DNA from: Acidobacteriota bacterium
GTDB taxonomy: Bacteria; Acidobacteriota; Aminicenantia; Aminicenantales; Saccharicenantaceae
Length of the DNA stretch: 64,000 nt
Assembly (NCBI GenBank): GCA_022711665.1
Contig: JAKLEN010000002.1
Span: 1-64,000, forward strand
Direction: 5' to 3'
Position numbers and translations under genes: made by a program. Position 1 is the stretch's first letter. Every line of letters begins with the position of its first letter. The notes under the pieces were generated by a model. It was not told the DNA's origin, did not search any database, and saw nothing but the letters and a program-made list of their open reading frames with translations. This document shows positions 113 through 37,526 of this stretch, one piece after another.

Positions 113-128
113 CATGCTACCTTTAGAT

Positions 129-298
129 AGCGCTTCCTCCCGATATCTCCCAGAGGTATGGCTTCGGGTCGCTCCGCCATCCTTCTGATGGTCGCTTCGG
201 CCGCTCCGCTCCCTGCCGGTCCCCTCCCAGCAACGGGGAACTGCGAGTACAATCCCCTCGCCGCTTCGAGAGGGAATCCCGGAAACGGGAGAAGAACC
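129..298. repeat. Dispersed terminal-inverted-repeat element, copy A
   Basis: The right end (263-298) carries the end motif GAGAGGGAATCCC...GGGAGAAGAACC found inverted or direct at the other two copies. The left end is diverged (CTTCCTCCCGATATCTCC, about 133-150). The interior shares TTCCCCGTTGCTGG (on the minus strand) with the copy at 37332-37526. No coding capacity is seen. It fills the space between the IS110 end and the aldo/keto reductase gene, so the gap 37-303 contains only the IS end and this element. Confidence 0.6.
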
Positions 299-6119: not shown

Positions 6120-6132
6120 GACGCAAAAATAT

Positions 6133-6391
6133 GGTTCTTCTCCCAATTCCGGGATTCCCTCTCGCGGCGGCGATGGGAGATATCGGGAGTAAGCGCTTTC
6201 CCAAGATATTTCTCAGGATCCCGGCCTCGAGAGCTCGGCCGTGATCCTGACCTCCGCTCCCAGGAGTCCGCTCCGCGCCGGCCATGAGCCTAGCCGAAGA
6301 GAGGGATCCCCCGGAGATGGGAAGTCCCGTTTTTTGGCTCGGCTCAGGTCATCGCCGCCGCGAGAGGGACCCCGGAGATGGGAGAAGAGCC
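6133..6391. repeat. Dispersed terminal-inverted-repeat element, copy B (mosaic)
   Basis: The left end 6133-6174 (GGTTCTTCTCCCAATTCCGG onward) is the near-perfect inverse of the right end 6351-6391 (ending CCGGAGATGGGAGAAGAGCC), a pair of about 41-base inverted repeats. Inside lie a copy of the A-type end (6175-6197, GGGAGATATCGGGAGTAAGC) and a C-type right end (6281-6321, GCCATGAGCCTAGCCGAAGA onward). The whole therefore looks like nested or recombined copies. It has no coding capacity and occupies most of the 393-base gap between two genes. Confidence 0.75.
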
Positions 6392-6401
6392 AAAAAGGGG
6401 C

Positions 6402-37331: not shown

Positions 37332-37526
37332 GGTTCTTCTCCCAATTCCGGGATTCCCTCTCGCGGCGGCGATTGGCGTTGCCTCGAAGGTCCCCGTTGC
37401 TGGAGAGGGGGGCCCGCGAAGCGGGGGGGAACCGTGCAAACTGGTTCCCAGGGGGACCGGGGAGCTAGAGGCAATGCCATGAGCCAAGCCGAAGAGAGGG
37501 ATTCTCCCGGAGATGGGAGAAGAACC
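37332..37526. repeat. Dispersed terminal-inverted-repeat element, copy C (best preserved)
   Basis: A 195-base element. The left end GGTTCTTCTCCCAATTCCGG (37332 on) and the right end CCGGAGATGGGAGAAGAACC (to 37526) are inverted repeats of about 35 bases with a few mismatches. The interior is itself folded: GGCGTTGCCT with AGGCAATGCC, and CCCGCGAAGCGGG. It lies in the 410-base gap between the DUF6600 and Nudix genes; the remaining gap holds their promoters. No coding capacity, so a MITE-like or REP-like element. Confidence 0.8.

Follow-up and report, generated by a model that had tools for sequence, protein, structure and literature searches.

Miniature elements with ISL3-like ends and a possibly selected folded interior in Candidatus Aminicenantes

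What is a non-coding stretch of 195 bp with inverted ends and a strongly folded interior doing between two genes of an uncultured bacterium, and how did it get there? The locus lies in a window of 64,000 nucleotides (positions 1 to 64,000 of contig JAKLEN010000002.1, GenBank assembly GCA_022711665.1) of a Candidatus Aminicenantes genome, here termed G000 (3.25 Mb, 13 contigs, 95% complete). A first-pass annotation had described it as one of three copies (A, B and C in the following) of a family resembling either MITEs or REP/REPIN sequences. We hypothesize that the copies are MITEs, that an ISL3-family transposase moved them, and that their interiors are under selection, a joint reading to which we assign a probability of roughly 0.55.

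Copies in the window and extent of the family

The relevant features of the window are the following.

37332..37526, plus strand: copy C, complete type-1 MITE of 195 bp with both ends; site empty in the congener G002
37332..37353, plus strand: left inverted end of copy C, identical to the end motif
37505..37526, minus strand: right inverted end of copy C, identical to the end motif as read on that strand
37354..37502, plus strand: type-1 core of nested hairpins, covarying in a compensatory manner among copies (alignment A1, pair counts)
37389..37464, plus strand: inner structured motif (match of 70 bits to covariance model R1, which includes copy C itself)
6133..6391, plus strand: copy B, MITE of mosaic build with ends at 6133 and 6391 and an additional right arm in its interior
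6125..6132, no strand: bases to the left of copy B, AAAAATAT, probably a target-site duplication (5/8 match)
6392..6399, no strand: bases to the right of copy B, AAAAAGGG, probably a target-site duplication
119..298, minus strand: copy A, truncated MITE with its sole remaining end at 277-298 (end-motif match, fold)

Inverted ends had been ascribed to all three copies. Copies B and C possess both, and the coordinates of copy C, whose ends read GGTTCTTCTCCCAATTCCGGGA and GGTTCTTCTCCCATCTCCGGGA, are exact. Copy A retains the right end only, and the span of 129-298 given for it has to be extended to a start at about 119, its left side being broken at about 118/119 by a different mobile element. 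The strongly folded interiors likewise hold for copy C (-67.6 kcal/mol as single-stranded DNA, z = -9.6) and copy B (z = -9.8), whereas copy A folds at the level of shuffled sequence (z = -0.3). An intergenic position is borne out for B and C, which lie between genes called by an ORF caller run over the window.

The element occupying positions 1-118 of the window has matching ends at the end of contig C8 (L154) and at C2:1-113 (L037) of the same genome, and it sits inside MITE copies at similar positions of the central hairpin. Three contigs (C2, C6, C8) terminate in it. Its minus strand carries, behind AAGGAGG, a start LYFIGVDHHKQA that by eye looks like the N-terminus of a putative IS110-family transposase.

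A family of three copies was a large undercount. BLAST finds 82 segments of G000 that match copy C, full-length copies elsewhere in the genome being 96-92% identical to it, and the 22-nt end motif, at no more than two mismatches, occurs 53 + 50 = 103 times (reversed control: 0), which corresponds to about 50 elements. The motif is found in 13/13 genomes of the genus, and 14 of the 16 stretches returned from public genomes by the end-motif pattern belong to Candidatus Aminicenantes MAGs, on which basis we assign the host to Aminicenantes. Outside Aminicenantes, the exact 22-nt end is present in Luteimonas granuli (NZ_CP042218, L235) and in a MAG labelled Rhizobium sp. (L244), possibly by chance, contamination or transfer. 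Between common arms the family carries two interior modules, type 1 in copies of 195 bp such as C, and type 2 in copies of about 260-330 bp; both have inverted ends, are non-coding and lack an internal transposase. Two adjacent pairs (G000:C11:159510-159980 and G000:C7:239257-239672), separated by few bases or none, look as if one copy had inserted beside another. Contigs C5, C9 and C12 start within MITE copies; since the assembly breaks at repeats, further copies or the driver may be hidden. A search of the literature on Aminicenantes repeats returned no relevant report.

Insertion and the probable driver

For 30 complete copies with both ends, the flanks were compared with each other and with permuted partners. 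The flanking 8 bp are identical at 164/240 positions versus 90 +/- 10 after permutation (z = 7.4), a mean match of 5.5/8 versus 3.0, and the signal is maximal at exactly 8 and lower on either side. The duplicated 8-mers are A/T-rich, and two copies display perfect duplications (AAAAAAAG, TTTTTCTT). Copy C has no recognisable target duplication (2/8 flank match). In the congener G002, the gap orthologous to that of copy C holds only short filler between the common flanks, and the site of the copy at C7:387340 contains the target stretch CAAAAGAAG singly, followed directly by the common flank. One copy of genome G009 (L204) has an empty site in eight congeners. Because of the duplications and the empty orthologous sites, the copies are inserted elements; they are MITEs. 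The degeneracy of the duplications marks most insertions as old. Neither of the outcomes that the first-pass annotation had named as speaking against mobility, a family confined to three copies or a lack of empty sites, was seen. Many copies, clean ends, 8-bp duplications, empty sites and, within the order, an autonomous ISL3 element whose ends match all agree with its MITE alternative.

The ends together with 8-bp duplications led us to suspect the ISL3 family, whose published members have ends of this kind and duplicate 8 nt (PMC6305408). A transposase with matching ends, which had been asked for as a pointer to the driver, exists in an order-level relative; a PF01610 profile search of G000 yielded no ISL3 transposase. 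PF01610 matches occur in 30/94 genomes of the order. One of them, L115 in genome G069, is a complete ISL3 element with the duplication ACATTTAA on both sides, laid out as ACATTTAA, left end GGATCATCTCCCGATTAGTTGG, right end GGTTCTTCTCCCATTTAGTTGG, ACATTTAA. Its right end agrees with the most frequent type of MITE end over the 16 terminal nucleotides, and the pair of MITE end variants, CCCGATT and CCCATTT, is mirrored by the two ends of L115. The end form CTCCCATTT recurs in several other ISL3 elements of the order; the congener G006 carries an ISL3 element with a different end type. Homology between the MITE and L115 stops after 16 nt, so that simple internal deletion of this element does not account for the MITE.

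Judged by sequence, an ISL3-family driver is very probable. Such a transposase, acting in trans, would have recognised the GGTTCTTCTCCC ends, as matching ends in relatives suggest, and would have put the elements into A/T-rich 8-mers, duplicating those 8 bp. It is absent or unassembled in G000, and the family is for this reason probably immobile there now. Mobilization by another transposase family that also produces 8-bp duplications would fit the missing ISL3 transposase in G000 and the mere 16 nt common with L115. We consider it unlikely, given that both MITE end variants are mirrored in a single ISL3 element with equal duplication length, and that an ISL3 MITE of the same logic is described in a report on Microcystis (PMC11448079). 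The choice of site could in principle be explained by insertion targeted to the T-tract of intrinsic terminators, as several copies lie in a T/A run beside a strong GC hairpin (C1:279807, C1:385307, C7:104348, C7:387340, C9:6158). A paired test on 29 copies displays no significant enrichment (-9.6 kcal/mol on the expected versus -7.7 on the other side, p = 0.22); we therefore rejected such targeting as a general rule and hold it to be improbable.

The folded interior and its inner motif

The first-pass annotation overlooked that the interiors covary and that part of one also occurs without transposon ends. In an alignment of 46 type-1 copies from 12 genomes, with the structure taken from one copy, 18/45 pairs are changed on both sides versus 8.0 +/- 1.6 in shuffled data, and pairing is lost when the partners are slid against each other; type 2 (35 copies) has 97 double-changed cells versus 32 +/- 5, these counts controlling for relatedness in part only. 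One type-2 helix of 12 pairs is 98% paired, with 9/12 pairs changed on both sides. Between G000 and G009 its stem is 40% identical and its loop 82%. Since loops are conserved while stems are exchanged, selection on the folded element is favoured; self-correction of a palindrome alone would not protect the loop. We lean towards structural selection on the interior, in which each element carries one of two modules of nested hairpins, with stems held by compensatory changes and with conserved loops. Pairing of the type-1 linker with the last hairpin loop in a pseudoknot (GTCCG/CGGAC, TTGC/GCAA) is suggestive at a permutation p of 0.017, with relatedness uncontrolled, and we do not claim it.

The inner part of type 1 is also present in other genera and families, within outer stems that are unrelated in sequence but complementary, and without recognisable ISL3 ends. 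It reads CCCC-GTAGCGGAG-GGGG-ACCC-hairpin-GGGGAACCG..CGGGACTGGTTCCC within the variable outer stem. The covariance model R1 matches at least 9/297 genomes of the phylum at E <= 1e-4, all in the family of the window, a lower bound in view of strict filters and evenly drawn genomes. Three genomes of the sister genus g4 contain tandem arrays in which 3-4 units are spaced by 144-173 nt; the arrays lie at the same position, between convergent genes. These arrays (L313, G015:C6:44687-45217; L312, G019:C36:77988-78351; L315, G018:C16:60786-61207) come from three species and have an outer stem GGGCATCCGGACTGTC...GACAGTCCGGATGCCC in common in the last unit. In genomes G049 and G054 (L294-L300) the inner motif lies within a longer repeat of 300 nt or more, of which some copies start with GGGGAAG and end with CTTCCCC, possibly a different type of element. 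Rfam 15 has no gathering-level match in the window, and permissive thresholds, applied to eleven motif loci and one further locus, return matches at chance level only. The inner motif probably predates the MITE family and became its cargo by capture, a direction that we infer.

In 20 copies of G009, the arms are 88.5% identical pairwise as opposed to 48% for the adjacent terminal repeats, and in five copies the ends differ from shuffled sequence by less than two standard deviations. The type-1 module outlasts the erosion of the transposon ends. L204, one of the copies with eroded ends, lies between two convergent stop codons at a site that is also occupied in G005; the two cores are 81% identical and belong to different subfamilies. 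As the subfamily differs at an orthologous site, gene conversion among copies has probably contributed, and it could keep cores alike without selection. The tree of copies displays clustering by species inside several older subfamilies.

Position at gene ends and comparison with known elements

Gene context was derived with a simple codon-usage ORF caller, for which the window served as a plausibility check. Placement between convergent genes applies to 15/39 copies in G000, 8/20 in G009 and 9/19 in the others, or 32/78 overall versus 7/50 window gene pairs (p = 0.0015), where the flanks of copies other than B and C were called separately and interrupted genes would go unrecognised. Type-1 copies and R1 loci combined lie between convergent genes in 24/46 cases. 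In tandem gene contexts these have no strand preference (7 same, 10 opposite), which rules against a strand-specific ncRNA. By this gene caller, the type-1 module concentrates near gene 3' ends, chiefly between convergent genes and in either strand, and may act there as a strand-symmetric hairpin at transcript ends, in termination, in 3'-end protection or as a protein-bound cruciform. This would amount to a BIME-like role for a module transported between ISL3-type ends. Given its position, symmetry and structure, we regard such a gene-end function as plausible, at somewhat less than even odds. Still more tentatively, the inner motif may be an undescribed hairpin of gene 3' ends in Aminicenantes, strand-symmetric, occurring stand-alone and in tandem, and captured between ISL3-type ends in the genus of the window, so that the mobile element would have spread ready-made gene-end signals.

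The interiors could instead be passive passengers of mobile ISL3-type MITEs, homogenised by gene conversion, with templated correction between the inverted arms keeping the stems. Long inverted repeats readily undergo such correction, and the subfamily switch at the L204 site and the species-wise clustering of copies fit this explanation. It has more difficulty with conserved loops beside exchanged stems, with the concentration between convergent genes, and with an inner motif that appears in other genera within unrelated outer stems and in tandem arrays; we think it rather unlikely. The other half of the first-pass proposal, palindromes of REP, BIME or REPIN type spread by a RAYT or another single-strand (HUH) transposase, agrees with palindromic, intergenic elements close to gene ends and between convergent genes, and with tandem arrays of the inner motif that lack recognisable ISL3 ends. 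For elements with terminal repeats it is at odds with the 8-bp target duplications, which REPINs are not known to make, and with ISL3-like terminal inverted repeats of at least 22 nt. Beside one of the tandem arrays, an HFHM string reminiscent of RAYTs lies in a frame that by eye resembles an L-fucose-isomerase-type protein and not a RAYT. This origin thus seems very improbable, and MITEs of ISL3 type with a selected interior are the reading we retain.

REP and BIME sequences of enterobacteria and pseudomonads are, as here, palindromic and situated where genes end, including the gaps of convergent pairs; the Aminicenantes elements differ from them in their ISL3-like ends, their 8-bp target duplications and a much longer nested structure. 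The closest description is that of the 187-nt ISL3-type MITE of Microcystis aeruginosa, which is likewise short and non-coding (PMC11448079), with 8-nt direct repeats, a stem-loop interior, many copies and terminal repeats (GGCTCTTCG) matching ISL3-family elements. In Microcystis the driver is in the genome and the copies are identical, whereas in Aminicenantes it is missing and the copies are old; covariation or conservation beyond the ends is not described in the passages considered (PMC11448079). ISL3 insertion sequences proper (PF01610; L115, and ISArsp7/ISPst2 of PMC6305408) likewise have GG-starting terminal repeats and 8-bp duplications, but encode a transposase, exceed 1 kb and have an interior unrelated to the MITE. 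BOX, RUP and SPRITE of Streptococcus pneumoniae (PMC10969869) are also short, intergenic and structured, with interiors that are in part terminator-like; host and ends are different, and the likeness is one of description, not of demonstrated sequence relation.

Since ISL3 MITEs are already known from Microcystis, the family alone is a modest addition. The unusual feature is the interior, with two nested-hairpin modules that covary, conserve their loops and are kept where the ends have eroded, and the inner motif adds an uncatalogued structured element in a little-studied lineage. If the interiors are truly selected, they would represent transposon cargo that outlives its ends, and it could be tested whether bacterial MITEs spread gene-end signals and bring about their domestication.
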